Of a DNA stretch of 64,000 bases, positions 39,763-59,521 are shown in pieces. The notes below the pieces were generated by a model that was given only the letters and a program-made list of their open reading frames with translations, made no database searches and was not told the origin of the DNA. This stretch comes from Pusillibacter faecalis (GTDB lineage Bacteria; Bacillota; Clostridia; Oscillospirales; Oscillospiraceae). The stretch spans positions 248,001-312,000 of the forward strand of contig NZ_AP023420.1 in NCBI RefSeq assembly GCF_018408705.1, written 5' to 3'. Position 1 is the first letter of the stretch. Every line of letters starts with the position of its first letter. Position numbers and translations under genes: made by a program.

Positions 39763-39852
39763 GCGATCCCCCCAATGTTTTTTTATCATATTACCATGTG
39801 ACGCAGCTCTTTACAAGAGCCGCTCTCCCCGCCCTTCTCTGAGATCTGAAGC

Positions 39853-39892: not shown

Positions 39893-40942
39893 TTAGACGG
39901 TCTGCAAATAGCCCTCAAACAGCTGCCCGGCAGAGGCCCAGCCCAGCAGTTGGCGGGGGTATCTGTTCAGCCAGCTTTCCACCGCCTCCACGTCTTTTTT
40001 GGTGACCTTATCAAAGTTTGTTCCCTTGGGGAACTTCCGCCGGATCATCTGGTTTTGTTTTTCGTTGCTTCCTCGCTCACTACTGCAGTATGGGTGACAG
40101 TAATATGTCCGGGTGCGCTTGCTCTCACAGCGTTTATATACGGACCGTTCGATCCCGATATAGTCCGCAAACTCGCTTCCGTTGTCCATGGTAATAGATT
40201 GGAATACCTGCGGGAAGCGGGTGCCCCATTTCCGTTCCATGGTGTCCAGCGCACGGACGACGCTGGCCGCGGATTTATCGCGGATCAGGCGGATCACCTC
40301 CATGCGGGTGACGCGCTCGGTCAGCACCAGGAGGCACTTATGCCCGCCCCTGCAGGAAACCACCAGATCCATTTCCCAGTGGCCGAACTCCTGGCGCCCG
40401 TCGATCTCCGGCGGGCGCTTTTCTATGCTCTCACCCTTGGGCTGCTGTTTCGCCCGCTGGACGTGCTTGGTTTTCTTCTTCCGCCGGGAACCCTTGAACG
40501 GCAGCGCCTTATTGGTCAGGCGGAGAAAAACTCCCTTGTCAATATAGGCATAAAGGGTTTGGCGGCAGATCCGCGTTTCAAAGCTGCCGTACTTTTCCGG
40601 GTGGTTCTCAATCTCATGCAGGGCTGCCTCCGGGCTGTAATTGTCGTCAGCAATCAGCGCCTCCAGGGTTTCGGCGTACCGGCGATCACTTCCAATTTTC
40701 AGGGGGCCGCCCTTGGCCGCCATGTTGGCCCGGTAGCGGGCTTGTGACCGCTCCGGTATGTACTCGGTCACTTCGATATAATCCGCGTTCATGTAGGTGT
40801 ATGTCCCGCGTTTGATCTCGCGGCAGACGGTGGCGGCGCTGACGTGCAGGGCCGCGCCGATCTCGCGCATGGTGGCGCCCTCTTTTCTCATTCTGGCGAT
40901 CTTGTTCCGGTCAAACTCCGTCAGGTGCTTATATCCTTTCAT
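39893..40942 (-). mobile_element. IS30-family transposase
   Basis: About 349 aa from the ATG at 40942 (GAGGGCACGGGC upstream; 17 more codons are open). An N-terminal HTH_38 domain (KHLTEFDRNKIARMRKEGAT, VSAATVCREIKRG) is followed by the rve core with the DDE residues GHWEMDLVVSCRGG, SITMDNGSEFADY and CSSERGSNEKQNQMIRRKFP, the last being the IS30 signature. Terminal inverted repeats were not identified. It stands at the left edge of the prophage, so it may be an insertion near the attachment site. Confidence 0.9.
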
Positions 40943-41004
40943 GCCCGTGCCCTCACTTTCAAAAAAATATGGACGGCGCGGTGCATACAGCACTCCACGC
41001 CGTC

Positions 41005-42889: not shown

Positions 42890-43762
42890 TTATTTGTTGA
42901 TGGTGATAACCTGGCCCACATGGATCAGGTTCGGATTTTTGATCCCGTTGTCTGCTGCCAGCTTGGCCACAGTGGTGCCGTACTTCGCGGCGATACGGGA
43001 AAGGGTGTCCCCGGCCACAACGGTGTACTTGACGGCTCCGCCGGGCAGGCGGAGGACCTGGCCCACACGGATCAGGTTCGGGTTTTTAATGCCGTTGATC
43101 TCCACCAGTTTGGCCACGGTGGTGCCGTACTTTGCGGCGATACGGGACAGGGTGTCGCCGCTCTTCACGGTGTATGTACCCGCCGCCTGGGTCGTCGGTT
43201 TCGTTGGCTTGTCCGCCGTCCCGCCGGACGTGCCGCCCAGTTTCCGGGCGATCATGTCAAAGTCCGGGGTGATGAAACCGCGGATATACCGCCCGTTCAC
43301 TTTCATGGTGCGCTTGCCCACCTTGCCGCCGTTCATGTTTCCCTCTGTGACCACAAAGGTGCCGCCGCCCACCTTGGTGACAATGCCGATGTGATCCGTG
43401 GCGCCGGTGTTGTCGGTGGCGGCGTAGTTGGCCCCGTCCTGCCAGTCGTACACGCAGGCGTCGCCCACCTTTGGGGTGTATGCGTCGTTCTCCGTCCAGA
43501 TCCCTTTTTTCTTGGCGATCTCGACGTACTTTCCCACGCCGCACTCCGTCCCGGTGTACTCCGCGATCCCGGCCTTGATGTACGCCGCGGAGGTCGTGGT
43601 GGCACAATGGGCGTCACCCACCTGTACGCGGTAGCCTCTGGCCAGGGGCTTGTGGTTGTTGTAGATGTTCAGGATCTCCAGGTGCTTGGCGCTGCCTCTG
43701 GTTGCTCCGTCCCATGCATTGATAATGTCCGCCACCTTTCGGCGCAGTTCGTTTCCGGTCAT
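42890..43762 (-). CDS. endolysin: CHAP-like hydrolase with two LysM repeats
   Basis: 290 aa. Residues ~1-165 form a papain-like (CHAP/NlpC-type) hydrolase with the nucleophile in [14 protein letters not shown] and the histidine in [14 protein letters not shown] linker follows, then two LysM modules ([20 protein letters not shown] and [20 protein letters not shown], residues ~195-290) that anchor it to peptidoglycan. There is no signal peptide, so it needs the holin for export. The two LysM repeats are nearly identical, indicating recent duplication. Confidence 0.92.
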
Positions 43763-45922: not shown

Positions 45923-47047
45923 TTACACCTCCGTTTTGAAAATCGCATAAAATAGCCGCCGCAGTTTCAGCACCCTGCCGTGATCGTTGAAGTTCTCATA
46001 GTAGGAAATCGGTGTTTGCAGCCATTGGGCCACCTGCTCCACCGTCATTTCACCGCTGGCCACACGCACCTGGAAAAGCCGCAGTTTCCGCCGCGCCCGC
46101 TTCATGCCGTCCCGGCAGCCGTGGATCTTCACGGCGCCGGTGTTCGTCACCTGAAACTTTGCTTTGCAGAACCGGAACGGTCTGGAGAACGGAACCACCT
46201 TTGACTTTCCGGCGTTGACCTGCAGGCCCATGGCCTCCGCATGGCCGATCACGTCCGCCGCGGTCACCTCCGCCGCCTGCTTCGACGGCAGAATGGTGTA
46301 ATAGTCGTCCATGTAATGGGCAGCGCCATGGATCGAAAGCTGGGCTTTGATCCGGTTGTCCAGGGAGGACGGCAGCGCCACCATTTCCTGCTGGCTTGGC
46401 TCCACGCCCAGCGGCATACCCACGCCGCCCGGCACAGCTGCCACCACCAGATCGGCCAACTGCCGCAGGTCCGGGTTTAGGATCATGCCCCGGTGCCGCT
46501 CATACAGCAGCGCGTGGGGCGCGTCCGGGAAAAAGTGGTGAAAATCCATCAGGAACAGGGCACCCTCCAGGCCATGCTTGCGGTAATGGTCCCGCAGGTG
46601 CTTGGCCAGGCGTCTGTAATGGAAATGCAGGCCGCCGCCTTTCTGGCTGGCTTTGTTGTCGTAGATCATACTGGGCACATACAGCGGCACCAGCACCTTT
46701 TTGGTCAGAACCTTATAAACCTGCCGATCCTCAATGTGCGGCGCGTCTATTGGCCGAACCTTGCCCCGTTCTTTCAGGGTGAAATGGGCGGTTTTGCCCG
46801 GCTTCCACGTTCCATTTAGGATCTTGCGCCTGCGCTTGGCTGTGCCAGAAAACAGGTGCATTTCAAACCGCTGTGTGCTGGCTTTCCACCTCACGCCGTT
46901 GCAGCATTTCCGGCCATAGAAAAACATGGCCCGGTAACTGAAAACTTCCTCAATCGGCCCCAGGGCGTCGCTGTGGGCCTTTCGCTTTGCCTGCCGCCTT
47001 GTCTGGCGGCGTCTGTAACGCGCCTCGCGGCGCTGTTCGCTTGTCAT
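45923..47047 (-). CDS. DGR reverse transcriptase
   Basis: About 374 aa from the ATG at 47047; an in-frame ATG at 47170 would add 41 residues and neither ribosome binding site is ideal. RT motifs in order: RGKVRPIDAPHIEDRQVYK, ALFLMDFHHFFPDAPH (catalytic Asp of motif A), MPLGVEPSQQEMVAL containing LGxxxSQ, the form typical of DGR RTs (others have QGxxxSP), and HYMDDYYTIL (motif C YMDD). The very basic N-terminus (RYRRRQTRRQAKRKAH) may bind RNA. It copies the TR transcript into mutagenised cDNA that replaces VR. It lies 3' of TR, as in the Bordetella phage order mtd-avd-TR-brt. Confidence 0.95.
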   Translation of the reverse strand: MTSEQRREARYRRRQTRRQAKRKAHSDALGPIEEVFSYRAMFFYGRKCCNGVRWKASTQRFEMHLFSGTAKRRRKILNGTWKPGKTAHFTLKERGKVRPIDAPHIEDRQVYKVLTKKVLVPLYVPSMIYDNKASQKGGGLHFHYRRLAKHLRDHYRKHGLEGALFLMDFHHFFPDAPHALLYERHRGMILNPDLRQLADLVVAAVPGGVGMPLGVEPSQQEMVALPSSLDNRIKAQLSIHGAAHYMDDYYTILPSKQAAEVTAADVIGHAEAMGLQVNAGKSKVVPFSRPFRFCKAKFQVTNTGAVKIHGCRDGMKRARRKLRLFQVRVASGEMTVEQVAQWLQTPISYYENFNDHGRVLKLRRLFYAIFKTEV

Positions 47048-47266
47048 AGAAAAGTATTCGCCCTCCGTACAGTTGTGGTGTTGGTGTGCGTCTAAACTGC
47101 TTCGATCCAGCGCATGAAACGGGGTTAGCACAATACCCCCGCCATGCAAGCAGCGTCCGCGCGGGATCATCAGCGGGCAGTTTCAGGCTTTCGCCAGGGA
47201 AGTATCTTTCCTTTTACATGGGTCCGGTTCACGTTCGTTACTGCATTTGACCCAGTTATGCAAAAT

Positions 47267-47388
47267 CAGGGGGCCAGCGCCCAGGAATTGTTGGCGTTGT
47301 TATTGTTGGCGCTGCCGTCGGTGTTGACAAGGCAGAAATTGTTGCTGTTGCCCGAATTGACGGAACGGCACCACACATTGGCCGCCGT
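47267..47388 (-). repeat. DGR template repeat (TR)
   Basis: 122 bp, 92% identical to VR at 48005-48126. On the minus strand it contains clusters of AAC and AAT codons (AATTCGGGCAACAGCAACAA; AACAATAACAACGCCAACAA), the usual design that lets adenine mutation produce many amino acids without stop codons. All ten TR-VR differences fall on TR adenines. It lies between the Avd-like gene and the RT gene in a non-coding interval. Confidence 0.96.
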
Positions 47389-47448
47389 CAGAGGGGAAAG
47401 CCGCCCTGCCTCCCGGCGCGTTTTCAAAGATACACCCATAAAAATGAC

Positions 47449-47907
47449 TTATTTCCGCTTCCTGTCGCTCTCCAGGATATTCCGCAGCAGGGTGTCCTCC
47501 CGGTCTATCAGTTCGCCCAGGCTCTGCGCCATGCGGTCCAGCTTGTCCATGGCCTCCTTGGGTGGGACCGTCTTTCCGCTGGGCGCCGTAAAGCACCCTT
47601 GCGGGTTCTGGTACATAACCAGATATGCGTGGGTCAGGCGCACGTCCAGCGCAGAGAGGGAGGCCAGCGCCTCCAGCAAATGCGCCTTGCGCTGGGCTTT
47701 GCGCTGTTCGTCCGACGGGTATATTTTGTTGGCCTTTTCGGTGTGGTCCATGACCTCACCGGCCAGCTGCGCGGTGCCCTCTGCAATCAGCCGGGAATAA
47801 CGGGCGGAAAGCCGCGTCAAAAAGCCCACCGTTTCCACATAAATCTGGTTTGCGGTGTTCACATACTCCGCTTTGCTCACGGTCCGCTTTTCTTTCAGAA
47901 CTGACAT
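47449..47907 (-). CDS. avd: DGR accessory variability determinant (Avd-like)
   Basis: 152 aa, almost entirely helical: YVNTANQIYVETVGFLTRLS, RLIAEGTAQLAGEVMDHTEK, LEALASLSALDVRLTHAYLV, EAMDKLDRMAQSLGELIDRE. Avd proteins are small basic four-helix bundles that bind the RT and TR RNA. The position (target-avd-TR-RT) supports the call. It is longer than the ~125-aa Bordetella Avd, and similarity was judged by pattern, not by alignment. Confidence 0.8.
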   Translation of the reverse strand: MSVLKEKRTVSKAEYVNTANQIYVETVGFLTRLSARYSRLIAEGTAQLAGEVMDHTEKANKIYPSDEQRKAQRKAHLLEALASLSALDVRLTHAYLVMYQNPQGCFTAPSGKTVPPKEAMDKLDRMAQSLGELIDREDTLLRNILESDRKRK

Positions 47908-47945
47908 TCTTTCACCTCACGGGTTTTCTTTCTCTGTCCGGGTTT

Positions 47946-47967
47946 CCCGCCCACTTCCGTGGGCGGG
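47946..47967 (-). promoter_or_regulatory. DGR homing-associated hairpin downstream of VR
   Basis: CCCGCCCAC (47946-47954) and GTGGGCGGG (47959-47967) form a 9-bp stem with a 4-nt loop. It is 37 bp past the end of VR and has no T tract on the minus strand. In the Bordetella phage DGR a similar GC-rich hairpin/cruciform with a tetraloop lies just after the VR initiation site and promotes retrohoming. Confidence 0.7.
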
Positions 47968-47991
47968 ATTTTGCCGGATATGCTGCGGCGA

Positions 47992-50700
47992 TTAGACAAA
48001 AAAGCAGGGGGCCAGCGCCCAGGAATAGTAGGCGCCGGTATTGTTGGCGCCGCCGTCGGTGTTGACAAGGCAGAAACTGTTGCTGCTGCCCGAATAGACG
48101 GAACGGCACCACACATAGGCCGCCGTGCCGGTGGCGTTGTGCTGATAATGCACCTTGCTGTTTCCGGCCTTGTAATAGTCATACTGGGCCTGGTAATTCT
48201 TCTCCGCGCTGTTGGCGTAGGTTCTGATCCCGTGGTATTCAAACTCCGACAGCAGCGGCAGCAGATCCGTGGTGCTGGTGACATAGCTGGCGGTGTCACT
48301 TCCGCCGCCGGTGTTGTCGCTGTACTTGGTGGCCGGCTTCATAACCGCCCGGAGATCCGCCGGCAGGGCTGCCAGCAGGGTGTTGGCCGTGGGGCTGGTG
48401 GCGCTGGTGCTGTTGCTGCCCAGCACGGTTTTTCTCATGTGGCTGTTATTCCACCCGCCGCTGTTCGTCTGGCTGGTGTTCATGGTAAAGGCGCCGGTGG
48501 TGCTGGTGTAGCTGCCGTAATTGCCGTCTACCAGGCCCACCAGGGTGCCGTTGATCTTGCCGATCTGGAAATGGATCCGGTTGCTGCCCTCGCGGCTGGC
48601 GTTGTGGTTGAAACCCAGGATAAACACGGAAATGGCCAGATTGGAGATCGTCGTGGCGCCCACCTTGCCGTTGATCGTGATCCCCTTGGCGTCGCCCACG
48701 CTCCAGTAATTGGACCCCTTTCCGGCGTCGGACACGGCGCGGATCGTTGCCCAGCTGTTGGAGGCCAGCGTGTTGGAAATGCTGGTGACCGTCACCGGGG
48801 TGGTGGTCGTCTTGGTCACGCCGCCCTCGGAATAGCTGACAGTGACCGCCGTGGTGTTGGCTGCCATGGTGGTGGGTCTGCAGGTGTAGCCGGTGACGGT
48901 CTTTTTACTGCCGTCCGCCATGGTAGCGGTGACCACCATTCCCGCGCTGTTGAACGTTTCGCCGGTGAAATAGGAGGTTTTCGTGGGTGCGTGGGTCACC
49001 GCGATACTGGAAAGGTAGTTGCTCACGGTAATGGCCTGGGTGCAGGTCTTACTCACGCCGCCCTCTGCGTAAGTAATCGTGATCGTTGTATTGGCCAGCC
49101 CCAGGGCGCCGGTGGGCGAATAGGTCCAGCCGCTCACCACGCGGGTGGCGTTGTCCGAATATTTGGCGGTAATCACCATTCCGGCGCTGCTGAACTTCTC
49201 CCCGTACTTGTAGGCGGTTTTCGTGGGTGCTGTCGTCACGGAAATGCTGGACAGGGTGCGGATCGTGATCGCCTGGGTGCAGGTCTTTGTGACGCCGTTT
49301 TCCGTGTAGGAGATCGTCACCGCCGTGTCCGTCTTTGAAAGGGCGCCGCTGGGGGTGTACGTCCAGCCTGTCACGGTCTTTTTGGTGCCGTTGGACATGG
49401 TGGCCTCAATCACCATTCCGGTGGCGTCGAAACTCTCACCGATGTAATACGCGGTTTTGTTGGGTGCGGTTTTCACGGAAATGCTGGACATTTCCAGGAC
49501 CGTGACCGCCTGGGTGGTCGTGACCGTCACGCCCGCCCGCTGGTATTTGATCGTCACCGCCGTGGTGCTGGCTGCCATAACGGTGGGGCTGAACGTGCAG
49601 CCGTCGGTTACGTCCTCCGTGGTGCCGTCGGCATAGGTGGCGGTGACCACCAGGCCGGTGGGGTCGAATGTTTCCCCCACGTTGTAGGTGGTTTTCGTGG
49701 GTGCGTGGGTGACTGCCACGCTGGAGGTAATCACCAGATCCACGTTGTACTGCATGGCGCCGGTGACCTCCACCACGGCGCTGGCCGTGTGGCCGTTCAG
49801 GGTGGCGGTTACCTCCCAGGTGCCGGTGTTCTCCGGCAGGGAGAACTTGGTGGAACCCACGCCGTTCAGGGTGGTTTCTCCGTCCGTGCAAACCACCGCC
49901 GCGCCGGCGCAGGTCGTCACGTTGATACTGGCAGACTGGACGCCCAGGGCCTCCTTTAGCTTTTTCAGCGTGACCTTACGGTTTTGCCCGTCAGCACCGG
50001 AGAAAAACGGAACCGTGTCCGTCAGGGCCATGGCGTTGCTTTCCGTCAGCACTTGGGTGGGCTGCTGGTAGTCCACGCCCGGCGTGGCCTTGGTCACGGT
50101 TGGGTTTCCCTTTGCGTCCTGGTCGCCTTTCAAAATGCCCTTGGCGGTGATCGTGTCCTGTTTCTTTTCCAGTTCTTTGTTGATCTTCTCAAACAGGGCA
50201 TTATGGGCGTTCGCGTCCTTGTCGTGCGCCTCCAGGTCCGCCTCTGACACCAGCACCTGCGAACTGGACAGGGTGCAGGACACTGTGGAGGCGTCGCCCA
50301 CGATAATGGGCACGGTAATGTTTTTTTCCACCGTTTCCACCGACGCCACGGGGATAAAGTCCGCCGTGTCATAGGCGTTTTGGTAGCAGTAAAGAATGTC
50401 GTGGCTGTGGTCATTGGGGTAATCGGGATCCGCCGCAAACACGCCGATCTCGCGCCAGTAAAAACCCTCCTCCAGTTCTGCGTTGGAGAAATGGCCGGAC
50501 ACGTCGGCGTACTGCTCCGCGTTGTTCTTCACCGCGGCGTCAATAGTCACCACGGCGCTGACAAGGGCCGTCATAGCGGAGATCGGGCCGCTGATTGTGC
50601 CGTTGCCCAGCTGAATGGTTGTGAATTTGATCCCCTCGCCGGCCATATTCCTGTAATACAGGTTTTTTCCGGCGTCTGTCAGTTTCGGGGCCTGAAACAT
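47992..50700 (-). CDS. tail fibre/adhesin, DGR target with Ig-like repeats and CLec-type variable end
   Basis: 902 aa. Residues ~1-150 are a phage collar/fibre N-terminus (APKLTDAGKNLYYRNMAGEG, EGFYWREIGVFAADPDYPND) that attaches to the baseplate. Residues ~325-640 hold four Ig-like (Big_3-type) repeats, each opening like SSIAVTHAPTKTSYFTGETF and ending TQAITV-like. Residues ~650-902 are a C-type-lectin-like/DUF6273 domain (SEFEYHGIRTYAN) ending in VR: YVWCRSVYSGSSNSFCLVNT, then DGGANNTGAYYSWALAPCFF. Tyr, Ser, Gly and Thr replace the Asn codons of TR. This is probably the receptor-binding protein, diversified by the DGR. Confidence 0.93.
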   Translation of the reverse strand: MFQAPKLTDAGKNLYYRNMAGEGIKFTTIQLGNGTISGPISAMTALVSAVVTIDAAVKNNAEQYADVSGHFSNAELEEGFYWREIGVFAADPDYPNDHSHDILYCYQNAYDTADFIPVASVETVEKNITVPIIVGDASTVSCTLSSSQVLVSEADLEAHDKDANAHNALFEKINKELEKKQDTITAKGILKGDQDAKGNPTVTKATPGVDYQQPTQVLTESNAMALTDTVPFFSGADGQNRKVTLKKLKEALGVQSASINVTTCAGAAVVCTDGETTLNGVGSTKFSLPENTGTWEVTATLNGHTASAVVEVTGAMQYNVDLVITSSVAVTHAPTKTTYNVGETFDPTGLVVTATYADGTTEDVTDGCTFSPTVMAASTTAVTIKYQRAGVTVTTTQAVTVLEMSSISVKTAPNKTAYYIGESFDATGMVIEATMSNGTKKTVTGWTYTPSGALSKTDTAVTISYTENGVTKTCTQAITIRTLSSISVTTAPTKTAYKYGEKFSSAGMVITAKYSDNATRVVSGWTYSPTGALGLANTTITITYAEGGVSKTCTQAITVSNYLSSIAVTHAPTKTSYFTGETFNSAGMVVTATMADGSKKTVTGYTCRPTTMAANTTAVTVSYSEGGVTKTTTTPVTVTSISNTLASNSWATIRAVSDAGKGSNYWSVGDAKGITINGKVGATTISNLAISVFILGFNHNASREGSNRIHFQIGKINGTLVGLVDGNYGSYTSTTGAFTMNTSQTNSGGWNNSHMRKTVLGSNSTSATSPTANTLLAALPADLRAVMKPATKYSDNTGGGSDTASYVTSTTDLLPLLSEFEYHGIRTYANSAEKNYQAQYDYYKAGNSKVHYQHNATGTAAYVWCRSVYSGSSNSFCLVNTDGGANNTGAYYSWALAPCFFV
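48005..48126 (-). repeat. DGR variable repeat (VR)
   Basis: 122 bp at the 3' end of the fibre gene, homologous to TR. Ten substitutions in nine codons change Asn to Tyr (four), Ser (two), Thr and Gly, and one Ser to Gly. The GC-rich 3' part next to the stop (TGGGCGCTGGCCCCCTG) is identical in TR and VR and should be the IMH initiation element. Confidence 0.96.
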
Positions 50701-50716
50701 GGCTGATAACCTCCTG

Positions 50717-51286
50717 TTACATAGTCGCCCTTTGCAGGGTGATAAAATCGCCCGTGTGGATCCAATGGCCCACGAATACCTCCGCCGGAGGTGTGGACAG
50801 ATCCAACACGATTTCGTCCAGCCAGGCAGAAAGGCGCTTTACGGTGCCCAGCACCCGCTTGAACTCCTCCACGTCGTCCGACGTAATAGCCGGGTTCGTG
50901 GTGTATGCCTTGAAGTGATAGGGTTTCCCGCCGTATTCCCACCACTCGCTGATATGACCGGCCTGGAAAATGGTTTCAATAATCCGGTTCACCGCTGCCG
51001 GGGTGCCCATCTGCGCGTAAAACAGCAGGCTTTCCGCGATCAGGGTTCGCTTGACCTTAATGGAAAAGTTTTCGTCATAGGACGGGGTACGCAGTTCCAC
51101 GGCCAGCAGATCCAGCACCTTTTCCGGCACAGCATAGATCGCCGCATAGGTGCGGGCGCCGTCGGCATAGGCCAGCAGCTTTTCCACCTGCCTGCCCACG
51201 GCGTAGGCAAGCGCCTGGATCTCCGGCTGCTCTGCCAGGTTCTCCGGCATAATGTCCGTGAAGCGGCTGCCGGAAAGTTTAATCAT
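50717..51286 (-). CDS. baseplate/tail protein I-like (P2 gpI, DUF2313/YmfQ type)
   Basis: 189 aa from the ATG at 51286, with GGAGGGCTGG upstream. FTDIMPENLAEQPEIQALAY and YDENFSIKVKRTLIAESLLF are typical of phage tail protein I, which joins the baseplate wedge to the fibre. It overlaps gene J by 8 nt and precedes the fibre gene, the P2 J-I-H order. Confidence 0.88.
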   Translation of the reverse strand: MIKLSGSRFTDIMPENLAEQPEIQALAYAVGRQVEKLLAYADGARTYAAIYAVPEKVLDLLAVELRTPSYDENFSIKVKRTLIAESLLFYAQMGTPAAVNRIIETIFQAGHISEWWEYGGKPYHFKAYTTNPAITSDDVEEFKRVLGTVKRLSAWLDEIVLDLSTPPAEVFVGHWIHTGDFITLQRATM

Positions 51287-52433
51287 CTTCCAGCCCTCCA
51301 TACGTCACGGTGGCTGATCCGGTCAATGCTGCCACCTTGGTGGCGGCCACCGCCGCGAACGTCGGCGCGGTCACGGTGACGCGCTTGGCGCCTGCCTCCA
51401 TGACCATGGCGGCCAGCTGCGACGGGTTCACGTCGCGGCCTATGGTGCGCTGCCAGGTTTTATATTCCTCCACGGCCTGGGCCACCGCCGTCTGGATTGC
51501 CACCGCTCTGGCGCTGTCGCTGCGGTTGATGTAATACGTCAGGTTAATGCTGTATGTGACCTCCTCCGGGGCTTTCACGGTCAGCTTGTCCGTCATGGGG
51601 CGGATCGTCTTGCCGGAGAGGTACGCCTGCAGGCCGGAGATCATGGCCGCGCCCGGCTTGGAACCGTCTGCCATGATGAAAACAATATCCACCTGGCCCG
51701 CTTCGTGGTCGCTGGTGGCCACCACGTCACCAATGGCGGCGTTGTACTTCTTGGCGTGGTACAGGTATCCGTCCTCCGGGCCTGCCGTAGAATAGGCGCC
51801 AGGGGCCAGGTAAACCCGCTCCGCCAGGCTTTCGTCGTTCTCCACGTCTGCGCCGCCCTCCGTGGTGTTCTGGTTCACGGCGCTGGTAATGTAGGGAACG
51901 GGATCCACGATGGTGGACACCTCGCCAGGCGCCAGTCCGTTGCCCGCGTTGCCTGTTGCGGTACACTCCGCCAGCACGTCCACCGTCAGGCTGCCCGCCG
52001 GGATCTCTGCGTACTCCATCGTGCTGAAATAAATGGAACCGCTGGAGGAAACCCTGGTGCCCGCCGGGATCGGTGTGGCCAGCGTCCTGGTGGCCGACGC
52101 GGTAAAGCGGATCGTGGTCGTGGCCGCCTTTGCCGGTTCTCTGGTAACGCCTTTCAGCAGCGCCAGATTGTCCAGGAACTCCGAATAGGAGTATTTCAAA
52201 AGGCTTTGCTTGCCCGCTCGGTCAACGTACTGCATGGCTTGGTAAATCTGCGCCGCCGCCGAATACAGGATCATGCGGTGGACAGAGGCGCGGCCCAGGG
52301 ACACCTTGCTGCCCGTCGCTTGGAGCATGAACGCCTCAAAGTCTGCCACCATATCCCCGCGCACGTCGTCAATGGTCTTGTTGTCGATGAAAGACACGTC
52401 CGGGGTGTTCTGAATTGCGGAAATATCAGGCAC
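51279..52433 (-). CDS. baseplate assembly protein J
   Basis: 384 aa, a typical Baseplate_J length. N-terminal helical part (residues ~1-100), then the conserved beta domain (AGTRVSSSGSIYFSTMEYAE, AECTATGNAGNGLAPGEVST) and a C-terminal ferredoxin-like domain (VTYSINLTYYINRSDSARAV). It forms wedge subunits of the contractile-tail baseplate. It overlaps both neighbours by 8 nt. Confidence 0.93.
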   Translation of the reverse strand: MPDISAIQNTPDVSFIDNKTIDDVRGDMVADFEAFMLQATGSKVSLGRASVHRMILYSAAAQIYQAMQYVDRAGKQSLLKYSYSEFLDNLALLKGVTREPAKAATTTIRFTASATRTLATPIPAGTRVSSSGSIYFSTMEYAEIPAGSLTVDVLAECTATGNAGNGLAPGEVSTIVDPVPYITSAVNQNTTEGGADVENDESLAERVYLAPGAYSTAGPEDGYLYHAKKYNAAIGDVVATSDHEAGQVDIVFIMADGSKPGAAMISGLQAYLSGKTIRPMTDKLTVKAPEEVTYSINLTYYINRSDSARAVAIQTAVAQAVEEYKTWQRTIGRDVNPSQLAAMVMEAGAKRVTVTAPTFAAVAATKVAALTGSATVTYGGLEDD

Positions 52434-57542: not shown

Positions 57543-58058
57543 TCAGCACATCTCCTTGATCTTGGCCAGAACGTCCACGCCGTTGACCTTGTAAACCTCG
57601 TTCAGCTTGTCCAGTTCCACCACAGTCTTGCCGTCCACCTCAATGAGAATGTAAAGAATGGTCAGCGTGATCGCGGTGTCCATGGGGCTGCCTGCCTTGA
57701 CCTTGCCGGTGGTCAGCTTTCCGCCGCGGCCACGAACCACCACACGCATGGGTCTGAACTCAATATCGCCCTCGGTGTTGGTGGTCTGCTGGGCGCCGCG
57801 GATCTCCAGCTGCACGGCCTTGGTCATGTCCATCATGTCGGCGGTTTCCTTGTCCAGCAGACGGAACGGGATTTCCAGTTCCTGATTGCCGAAATAGCCC
57901 ACGGTGGGGTCGTCGATCTCACCCAGGATCCCGGCGCCGGTCACGGTTTCGCTGGACGGCTCAAAGTCCGGCAGCGTCATTTCCTCACCGACACCCAGCA
58001 GGCGGTTTCCCTTGTTGTAGACGTTGTAACGGTTGATCTTAGTGGGGATCGTGTTCAT
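57543..58058 (-). CDS. major tail tube protein (P2 FII-like)
   Basis: 171 aa, the usual tube size. Begins MNTIPTKINRYNVYNKGNRL then LGVGEEMTLPDFEP; later EIPFRLLDKETADM and GDIEFRPMRVVVRGRGGKLT. These match the contractile-tail tube family (Phage_tube). It forms the inner DNA conduit. There is a 2-nt gap after the sheath gene. Confidence 0.92.
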   Translation of the reverse strand: MNTIPTKINRYNVYNKGNRLLGVGEEMTLPDFEPSSETVTGAGILGEIDDPTVGYFGNQELEIPFRLLDKETADMMDMTKAVQLEIRGAQQTTNTEGDIEFRPMRVVVRGRGGKLTTGKVKAGSPMDTAITLTILYILIEVDGKTVVELDKLNEVYKVNGVDVLAKIKEMC

Positions 58059-58060
58059 CT

Positions 58061-59521
58061 TTATTCACCTCCGATTGCGCTTTCCAGGGCGTCCACGTCA
58101 TACTCACGGATATTTTCGATATATTCCGCGGGAATGTACGGGGCCAGGTAGGTGTGTACGGTCAGGTGGCCGGCCAGCAGGTTGGTAACGGGGTTTTCGT
58201 CGCTGCGGAACTCCACGCGGTAACCGGCGCAGTAGTCGCGGGCAACGTAGCCGTTGCCGATAATGTTCTGGCTGTCCACAATAGACTGGATCAGGCGCTT
58301 ATTGCCCGGCTTGTCAACTTTCTGGAAATAAGTCTGAATGAAATTATTTCCGTCCCAGTCAAAGAAACGGCGCACGGCCCACCAGCGATCTTTCGGATCC
58401 GTGGTGGAGGGATAGGCCGCGGTGTTGTTGCCCCAGGATTTGAACCCGTTGGCGTTGATCGCGGTAATAACGCCGTTGGCGTTCAGCACGTCGTTGGCCT
58501 GCTGCTGATCCAGCGCCACCGTGGTGCCGTCTTTCAGAACCGTGGCGGTGATCCGCAGGTCCTTATTGGACGGGCTTTCATAGGGCACATCTGCGTTGTT
58601 GGCGTCCGTGTAGGCCGTCAGGGCGGCAAACATGGCGGAGAAATAATATTTCTTCTCGCCCACGGCCACCATGGGCCACAGGGCCGCCGCATGGGCGGAA
58701 CTGGCGCCCAGGGCTTCCTTGGCGCCCTTTACGCTGGTGTAAACCACCGCGCCGTCGCTGTCCGCGGAAATGTCCAAAAGGCAACTGCAATTAAAATTGC
58801 CGTTGATGTTCTCGGTCTTGGCCTGGAGGGCTGCCGCTACGGTGGGGGTGTGGCTCCAGCCGGGTGCCAGGATCAGGCCGGGCACCATGCCCAGGGTGGG
58901 GTAAATCTGGCGGATCAGTTCCAGGCCGGTTTCCTTGCCGGTGGAGGTGTCCACGCCGCCCACAATGTCGGCAGCGGTCACGCCGGAGGGTTTCAGGCTG
59001 GTGCTGCTCACGGTCAGGCTGCTGGCCTCCTTGGCCGCGGTGGAAAGCAGCGTAATGGCCACGCTCCCGTTGTCCTCATGCGCCGCCTCGTAGTCGCTGC
59101 CGGCCACCAGGGTGGCGCTGCCGTTCTTCACGGCCAGGGTGTTCAGCAGCACATATTTCTTGTCATACAGCACCACGCCGTCCACAACGTCGCAGCTTTC
59201 CGCCTGGTTCTGCGTGACGTGGGCCGCCTTATTGGGATCCAGCACGTTCACCAGGATAATGGGCGCAACGTTGAAAACCTGGAAACAGGCGCTAATGCTC
59301 TGGCAAAGGGTGAAGTTCTCGAAATCGTCCGAATAGCCGACGGCCTCCACAGCCTCCTTGTAGCTGTAAACCAGCTTGGGGGTGTTGACCGCCGCCGCGG
59401 GGTCTTTTGCCAGGTGAATGGGCGCCGTGCCGAAAATGACCTGCAGTCCAGCGCTGCCCTGAATGGGTACGGTCAGGCTGGTGGCCTGCTCGGTGTTATA
59501 TACACCGTGTTTGTATGCCAT
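58061..59521 (-). CDS. tail sheath protein (P2 FI-like)
   Basis: 486 aa. Sheath family features: PIQGSAGLQVIFGTAPIHLA near the N-terminus, a VNVLDP strand, APGWSHTPTVAAALQAKTEN and, at the end, RRFFDWDGNNFIQTYFQKVD and YRVEFRSDENPVTNLLAGHL. It contracts to drive the tube through the envelope. The VYNTEQATSL start and its position before the tube gene fit P2 and clostridial myophages. Confidence 0.95.
   Translation of the reverse strand: MAYKHGVYNTEQATSLTVPIQGSAGLQVIFGTAPIHLAKDPAAAVNTPKLVYSYKEAVEAVGYSDDFENFTLCQSISACFQVFNVAPIILVNVLDPNKAAHVTQNQAESCDVVDGVVLYDKKYVLLNTLAVKNGSATLVAGSDYEAAHEDNGSVAITLLSTAAKEASSLTVSSTSLKPSGVTAADIVGGVDTSTGKETGLELIRQIYPTLGMVPGLILAPGWSHTPTVAAALQAKTENINGNFNCSCLLDISADSDGAVVYTSVKGAKEALGASSAHAAALWPMVAVGEKKYYFSAMFAALTAYTDANNADVPYESPSNKDLRITATVLKDGTTVALDQQQANDVLNANGVITAINANGFKSWGNNTAAYPSTTDPKDRWWAVRRFFDWDGNNFIQTYFQKVDKPGNKRLIQSIVDSQNIIGNGYVARDYCAGYRVEFRSDENPVTNLLAGHLTVHTYLAPYIPAEYIENIREYDVDALESAIGGE

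Follow-up and report, generated by a model that had tools for sequence, protein, structure and literature searches.

The 64,000-nucleotide (nt) stretch of Pusillibacter faecalis DNA analysed here, referred to as the window (assembly GCF_018408705.1, contig NZ_AP023420.1, positions 248,001-312,000 of the forward strand), carries on its minus strand what is almost certainly a complete, apparently intact and recently active diversity-generating retroelement (DGR) of a contractile-tailed temperate phage. Read 5´ to 3´, the cassette consists of the gene for a 902-amino-acid, tail-fibre-like target protein (50700-47992) with the variable repeat (VR) at its 3´ end (48000-48126), a 24-nt stem-loop (47968-47945), an accessory gene for a protein of 152 amino acids (47907-47449), the template repeat (TR; 47388-47262), a structured RNA of the RT-2 family (47255-47040) and the gene for a 374-amino-acid reverse transcriptase (RT; 47047-45923). 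The target, accessory and RT frames are all open and the TR is present, in keeping with an earlier, preliminary description of this DNA, in which all parts appeared intact. That description had also likened the gene order and orientation to mtd-avd-TR-brt of phage BPP-1, and the annotated BPP-1 cassette indeed has the same arrangement. It was silent on the stem-loop and the RNA.

The RT matches RVT_1 (8.9e-9) and phrog_1423, and the YMDD and DGR-type LGxxxSQ motifs previously reported for it are found as HYMDDY and PLGVEPSQQ. It is 23% identical to BPP-1 brt (E 2e-11), and its only sequence match in the PDB is 8ub7, an entry titled as a DGR ribonucleoprotein reverse transcriptase; its PADLOC matches are to weak RT models. 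The longest open reading frame begins at 47170, but the gene most likely starts at 47047, since the two closest database relatives are both 374 amino acids long and GGAGGG precedes the ATG at this position. A tree of 35 rows has a branch with support of 95/95 that separates the 24 RTs that we labelled as DGR (those of the window, relatives, BPP-1, ANMV-1, ARM81mr, Toutatis, Brigit, Shimadzu and Taranis) from five group II RTs, five retron-like RTs (all below the model cut-off) and one DRT6-like RT. The phylogeny that had been proposed as a check thus places the window RT inside the DGR group, in which we counted ARM81mr, whose RT is annotated as retron-type yet adjoins a bAvd gene. A first tree, containing a 331-amino-acid group II fragment with a branch length of 8.16, was unresolved and split up the known DGRs; for the second, the fragment was swapped for the five full-length group II RTs, the DRT6-like RT was added, and the near-copies L003, L026, L042, L043, L062 and L048 were removed. 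The genome has another RVT_1 stretch, at C1:1793550-1793801, within an open frame of 177 amino acids.

TR and VR are each 127 nt long and 91% identical, and all 11 mismatches fall on TR adenines, which make up 30 of the 127 TR bases; the chance of adenine-only mismatches is (30/127)^11 = 1.3e-7. Read in the VR frame, the TR holds 12 AAY codons, each of which can be converted to 15 possible residues without giving a stop. Near its end, the TR has TGA where the VR of the window and those of five close relatives in register (six VRs) have TGC, a fixed difference that would mark the stop of copying, IMH versus IMH* in BPP-1 terms. The location of the VR at the 3´ end of the target gene, the AAY codons and a TR/VR pair differing at TR adenines are all features of a DGR. 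An adenine-type pair was also seen at 20 of 31 relative loci, to which a tolerant scan added L021 (27/27 mismatches at A) and a contig-end piece in L012. The same scan found no pair at the remaining nine loci, where no more than 1214 nt precede the RT; in the longest of these, L016, the target end lies off the contig and an AAC/AAT-rich, TR-like stretch can be made out by eye.

Comparison between phages documents diversification in nature. Across seven close loci (the window, L003, L006, L007, L008, L022 and L024), 106 of 112 TR/VR differences are at adenines, and the VR varies at 29 of 33 A-sites versus 5 of 94 others (Fisher p 2.6e-19); just upstream of the VR, 31 of 340 flanking sites vary. 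At VR site 14, one of the five variable non-A sites, the T/C difference equals the TR of the same phage in 7/7 loci, as expected if the VR is copied from the TR. For the protein comparison, we drew 82 relatives from the 120 listed for the target (the best 120 of 4934 matches), added the window protein and dropped P0280 and P0321, whose C-termini are not collinear. The 81 fibre proteins compared carry 73 distinct VR peptides, with a mean of 11.0 residue types at the 12 AAY positions, 3.6 at five other A-containing positions, 1.62 at 24 VR positions without A and 1.28 at 221 positions outside the VR. An RT outside the DGR clade, or an invariant VR with changes away from adenines, had been named as grounds for rejecting a DGR, and neither was found: related phages differ strongly in their VRs, at TR adenines, with some non-adenine changes that are taken up below.

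The accessory gene, previously called Avd-like, probably deserves that name, for its predicted fold, a four-helix bundle that seems to resemble that of Avd, and not for its sequence. BLAST, the Pfam bAvd model and profile comparison, the latter with a shallow profile of the accessory family (Neff 1.5), gave no match to bAvd or BPP-1 Avd. Foldseek with the predicted fold returned nothing under E 0.001, with 2gsc, which we take to be an S23-type protein, as the best hit and no Avd chain among the best 50. Avd acts as a pentamer that binds the RT and the template RNA. A second structural search listed 2gsc, 2rld (S23 family) and five DGR entries as its first seven matches, with root-mean-square deviations (rmsd) of 1.9-2.2, followed by rows at 2.3-5.4. 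It is conceivable that the accessory protein is an unrelated helical protein present at this site by chance: the Z score of 12.9 compares with 12.1 for the first designed bundle, a gap below 1 that counts as tied by the rule of the tool, helical bundles reach such Z scores by chance, and the available part of one study reports Avd homologues only in the phages Mushu and Lagaffe (PMC5883640). We nevertheless regard this explanation as unlikely, given the five DGR entries among the closest structural matches, a weak match, at 28% over 58 amino acids (E 3e-5), to the Avd of Roseburia phage Shimadzu and the occurrence of the gene upstream of the RT in relatives too. The Avd-like assignment links a DGR accessory role to phrog_30516, a family of unknown function for which 1587 candidates gave 1554 matches at E <= 0.001. 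In L016 (156-345) and FP_Taranis (L005:5004-5189), a small repressor-like gene, annotated as Arc-like in Taranis and recognised by eye in L016, lies just before the accessory gene; the window has no such gene.

Between TR and RT lies a spacer that matches the Rfam family RF03077, RT-2 RNA, over its full length (170 bits against a gathering score of 40, E 1e-41). An RNAalifold consensus of 14 sequences of the lineage, near-copies included, has 42 pairs, 15 of them preserved through double changes. The host family was sampled with 300 genomes, of which 27 have a related RT (E <= 1e-20), and the sample gave 21 RT-2 matches over threshold. All 21 lie immediately 5´ of a matching RT on the same strand, ending -10 to +71 nt from it. 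At 19 of them the RNA is preceded, at a distance of 5-23 nt, by a TR whose mismatches are at A in 82-100% of cases; the two loci lacking a TR have just 306 and 521 nt of upstream contig. A class sample of 391 genomes gave four further matches over threshold, each 3-76 nt past an adenine-only TR, with scores of 61.5-113.5 versus at most 14 in 21 shuffled controls. At L100, a locus of this sample whose RT is 42% identical to the Shimadzu RT, a pattern search did not find the motif. Taking both samples together, RT-2 follows an adenine-mutated TR at 23 of 25 loci, and the other two are near contig ends. The RNA is also present in FP_Taranis, Pioen and Roseburia phage Shimadzu; in Shimadzu, the neighbouring gene is annotated as Avd.

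As a control, 16 loci whose RTs are of group II, retron-like or DRT6-like kinds were searched, and RT-2 was found at none of them. The association has its limits. RT-2 was not found over threshold beside 12 of 34 RT rows (28-37% identity and one fragment of 53%), and the link from RT to RT-2 is therefore not general. No TR was found for six below-threshold matches in the family sample. Among other DGRs searched, Toutatis reached 21.9 bits only, and Brigit, ANMV-1 and ARM81mr gave no match; other DGRs thus seem to use other spacers. At L104 and L105, in the class sample, below-threshold RT-2 matches (34.1 and 29.4 bits) follow adenine-only TRs of 68 nt, and the family may be wider than the current Rfam model.

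In BPP-1, the Phage_DGR RNA (RF03022) occupies the TR-RT spacer, the position held by RF03077 in the window. Given this shared position and the association with TR and RT, RT-2 is most likely the spacer of the DGR template RNA in this lineage, as Phage_DGR is in BPP-1. More specifically, we think there is a good probability that the template RNA of a Clostridia-phage DGR lineage has RT-2 as its spacer half, with RT-2 replacing Phage_DGR, binding the RT and an Avd that cannot be recognised by sequence, and priming mutagenic cDNA. The RT-2 model spans the ribosome site and start codon of the RT gene at its end, as might a cis-regulatory leader of that gene with no part in the template RNA. A role as leader alone is quite unlikely, since RT-2 begins 3-76 nt past the TR at 23 of 25 loci, at the spot of the BPP-1 Phage_DGR RNA; for the BPP-1 spacer, folding, recruitment of RT-Avd and priming of cDNA are reported in the part of the study available (PMC12875486). 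The leader and template-spacer roles are mutually compatible. By eye, the 3´ part of RF03022 (L034:2750-2882) and the 5´ part of RF03077 (47040-47255) each show an AGUAxC-GAAA-GxGAAA-like element with a short outer stem. This element is possibly common to both RNA families and could be an RT- or Avd-binding module.

The RT motifs were reportedly named in one earlier paper. The name and description of RF03077 as displayed give no function, and in the available text of the Rfam 15 paper it appears only as one of the families whose structure was improved (PMC11701678). A link between RT-2 and DGRs was not found in literature listings or in the accessible portions of four papers (PMC8143477, PMC11701678, PMC10589994 and PMC10159846), a set outside of which the original RT-motif paper falls. 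The cassette points to a function for a catalogued, unexplained RNA family. RT-2 could serve as a DNA-level marker of this DGR lineage, and the stems conserved in it hint at the features that an RT-Avd complex outside BPP-1 should recognise.

The stem-loop downstream of the VR (47945-47968) is a hairpin, TCCCGCCCAC-GGAA-GTGGGCGGGA, and a candidate cruciform. Its perfect stem of 10 bp compares with a maximum of 7 bp when the 130 nt following the VR were shuffled 300 times, and the surrounding 75 nt fold as DNA better than 200/200 shuffles (z -4.1). We surveyed 19 of the 21 sequences with a TR/VR pair (L018 and L023 were omitted; seven close relatives are included). A stem of 5-10 bp with a 4-nt loop lies 31-42 nt past the VR at 18 of these 19 loci, the stem sequences differing between phages, and the loop is GNAA at 17. 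Stems of 5 and 6 bp, as in L009 and L005, are within chance and prove nothing alone, and at L031 the stem-loop was not found in place after the VR. BPP-1 has GCGGGGCC-GAAA-GGCCCCGC after its VR, where the window loop is GGAA. According to the portion available of a study of the rebuilt BPP-1 system, deletion of the element severely, though not completely, cut activity (PMC12875486).

The target gene comes after the Baseplate_J and Tail_P2_I genes, and the N-terminal part of its product is like tail fibres (phrog_7037, 3.7e-32). Big_3 immunoglobulin (Ig)-like repeats (PF07523) follow as three stretches at E 0.001 and four at a laxer limit, and the C-terminus is a DUF6273 domain (PF19789, 2.3e-5) with the VR at its end. 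A PDB sequence search with the target found just two entries, both leucine-rich and weakly matched to the Ig-like part. A survey re-reads such targets, in the section available, as tail fibres with Ig-like domains beside an uncharacterised, non-Ig-like VR domain (PMC8144416). The Ig-like domains are encoded by tandem 237-nt repeats (window 48787-49725). Target relatives listed include proteins of 665, 743, 823, 902 and 981 amino acids, steps of about 79 residues that correspond to one 237-nt repeat, and fibre length may change by whole Ig-like repeats.

The DGR features for which we tested were found, apart from an Avd visible at the sequence level, and the cassette most likely works like that of BPP-1. 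If so, a transcript comprising the TR and the RT-2 spacer would fold, and the spacer would recruit the RT and the Avd-like protein. Priming of the cDNA would take place at the spacer, adenines would be miscopied, and the product would enter the VR, whose GC-rich 3´ end would mark the site together with the stem-loop. The outcome would be new residues at about 12 positions in the fibre tip. We infer that the fibre binds a host receptor, such that changes in the VR would retarget the phage.

Several observations, along with the missing sequence match between the accessory protein and Avd and the ease with which helical bundles reach high Z scores, weigh against a complete and recently active DGR. 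In its own genome, the TR has no match apart from itself and the VR, no second VR was found, and the genome carries a single VR state. Six of the 112 TR/VR differences in the close loci are off adenines. Fibre positions 863 (V/A), 871 (G/S) and 878 (L/R) vary, with a minor share of 0.37-0.49, despite having no A in the window TR; the variation at 863 and 871 matches TR differences among relatives, whereas that at 878 does not. The AlphaFold model of the target C-terminus has a pLDDT of 34.9 and did not yield the fold of the VR domain; for comparison with DGR targets of the C-type lectin type, the DUF6273 match is all that was obtained. The evidence of activity comes from comparison between phages.

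A silent or lately broken DGR would be a cassette whose parts look whole and which no longer works in this lysogen; in its favour, some Faecalibacterium phage DGRs are reported to show no VR variation in reads, in the available part of a study that did observe such variation for the close DGRs of Roos and Pioen (PMC11792537). However, all three genes are open, and the VR differs from that of L003 at 16 of 30 TR adenines despite cassettes that are 98% identical, indicating that diversification went on after the two split, and we consider a silent copy very unlikely. An origin of TR and VR by ordinary duplication of the fibre end, with an RT that is a retron or group II relative, a reading for which a weak TIGR04416 match (43.7 bits versus a cut-off of 300) could be cited, is refuted for practical purposes by the adenine-only differences and adenine-linked VR variation, the DGR motif, the position of the RT in the tree and the absence of RT-2 from the loci with other RTs.

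The surrounding genes fit the contractile-tailed prophage of the preliminary description, as a tail sheath (58061-59521, minus strand; phrog_23, 6.2e-75; 53% identical to the FP_Epona sheath, with no Pfam match) and a tail tube (57543-58058, minus; PF04985, 3.7e-38, labelled head closure in PHROGs) were found, with tape measure, baseplate and capsid genes also present. Directly upstream of the target are genes for Tail protein I (50717-51301, minus; Tail_P2_I, PF09684, 4.7e-20) and a Baseplate J-like protein (51279-52433, minus; PF04865, 4e-59). A phage lysin-like protein with CHAP and LysM domains is encoded downstream of the DGR (42890-43762). At the left end of the prophage lies an IS30-family transposase gene (39893-40993, minus; NF033563, 1.1e-64; phrog_4646; 52% identical to the FP_Lagaffe integrase). 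A 16-nt repeat, TTCTCTGAGATCTGAA, occurs at 39835-39850, the attL candidate, and past the window at C1:331516-331531, giving a prophage of about 43.7 kb that adjoins pyrimidine-synthesis genes, as read from the translations. We infer that the DDE transposase serves as the prophage integrase. An IS30 integrase with a flanking direct repeat is a known, if atypical, arrangement: FP_Lagaffe is described, in the available part of the report, as having a DGR and an atypical IS30-type integrase, with its prophage flanked by direct repeats (PMC5883640). An apparent joined junction, adjoining a strong inverted repeat, can be seen by eye at L003:29250-29340.

Among known systems, BPP-1 shares with the window the gene order and orientation, adenine-biased TR/VR differences (18/22 in BPP-1), a structured TR-RT spacer, a stem-loop after the VR and, probably, an accessory protein of Avd-like fold. 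It differs in the low identity of the RT (23%), in a spacer that is RF03022 and not RF03077, in an Avd to which the window accessory protein has no sequence match, and in a target, Mtd, that contrasts with the Ig-like repeats and DUF6273 of the window fibre. FP_Lagaffe is alike in its IS30-family integrase, whereas its RT is absent among the 25 phage records matching the window RT.

The Faecalibacterium phages Taranis, Roos and Pioen are closer, with RTs 55-56% identical and an accessory protein 72% identical, although nucleotide identity is 66-67% over 47% of the cassette. Taranis also has a DUF6273 target, the homologous gene being annotated as 'DGR target', and both Taranis and Pioen have the RT-2 RNA spacer; the integrases of Roos and Pioen are given as lambda-type and phiC31-type in the part of the study available (PMC11792537). 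Two genomes belong to the same phage lineage as the window and carry the same IS30-type integrase, MT835543, from human faeces, and Dulem virus 34, with cassettes 98% and 76% identical, yet the VR of MT835543 differs at 16 of 30 TR adenines. The cassette is ordinary for gut Clostridia phages and represents one more DGR, with natural evidence of activity, in a set already well described in gut phages.

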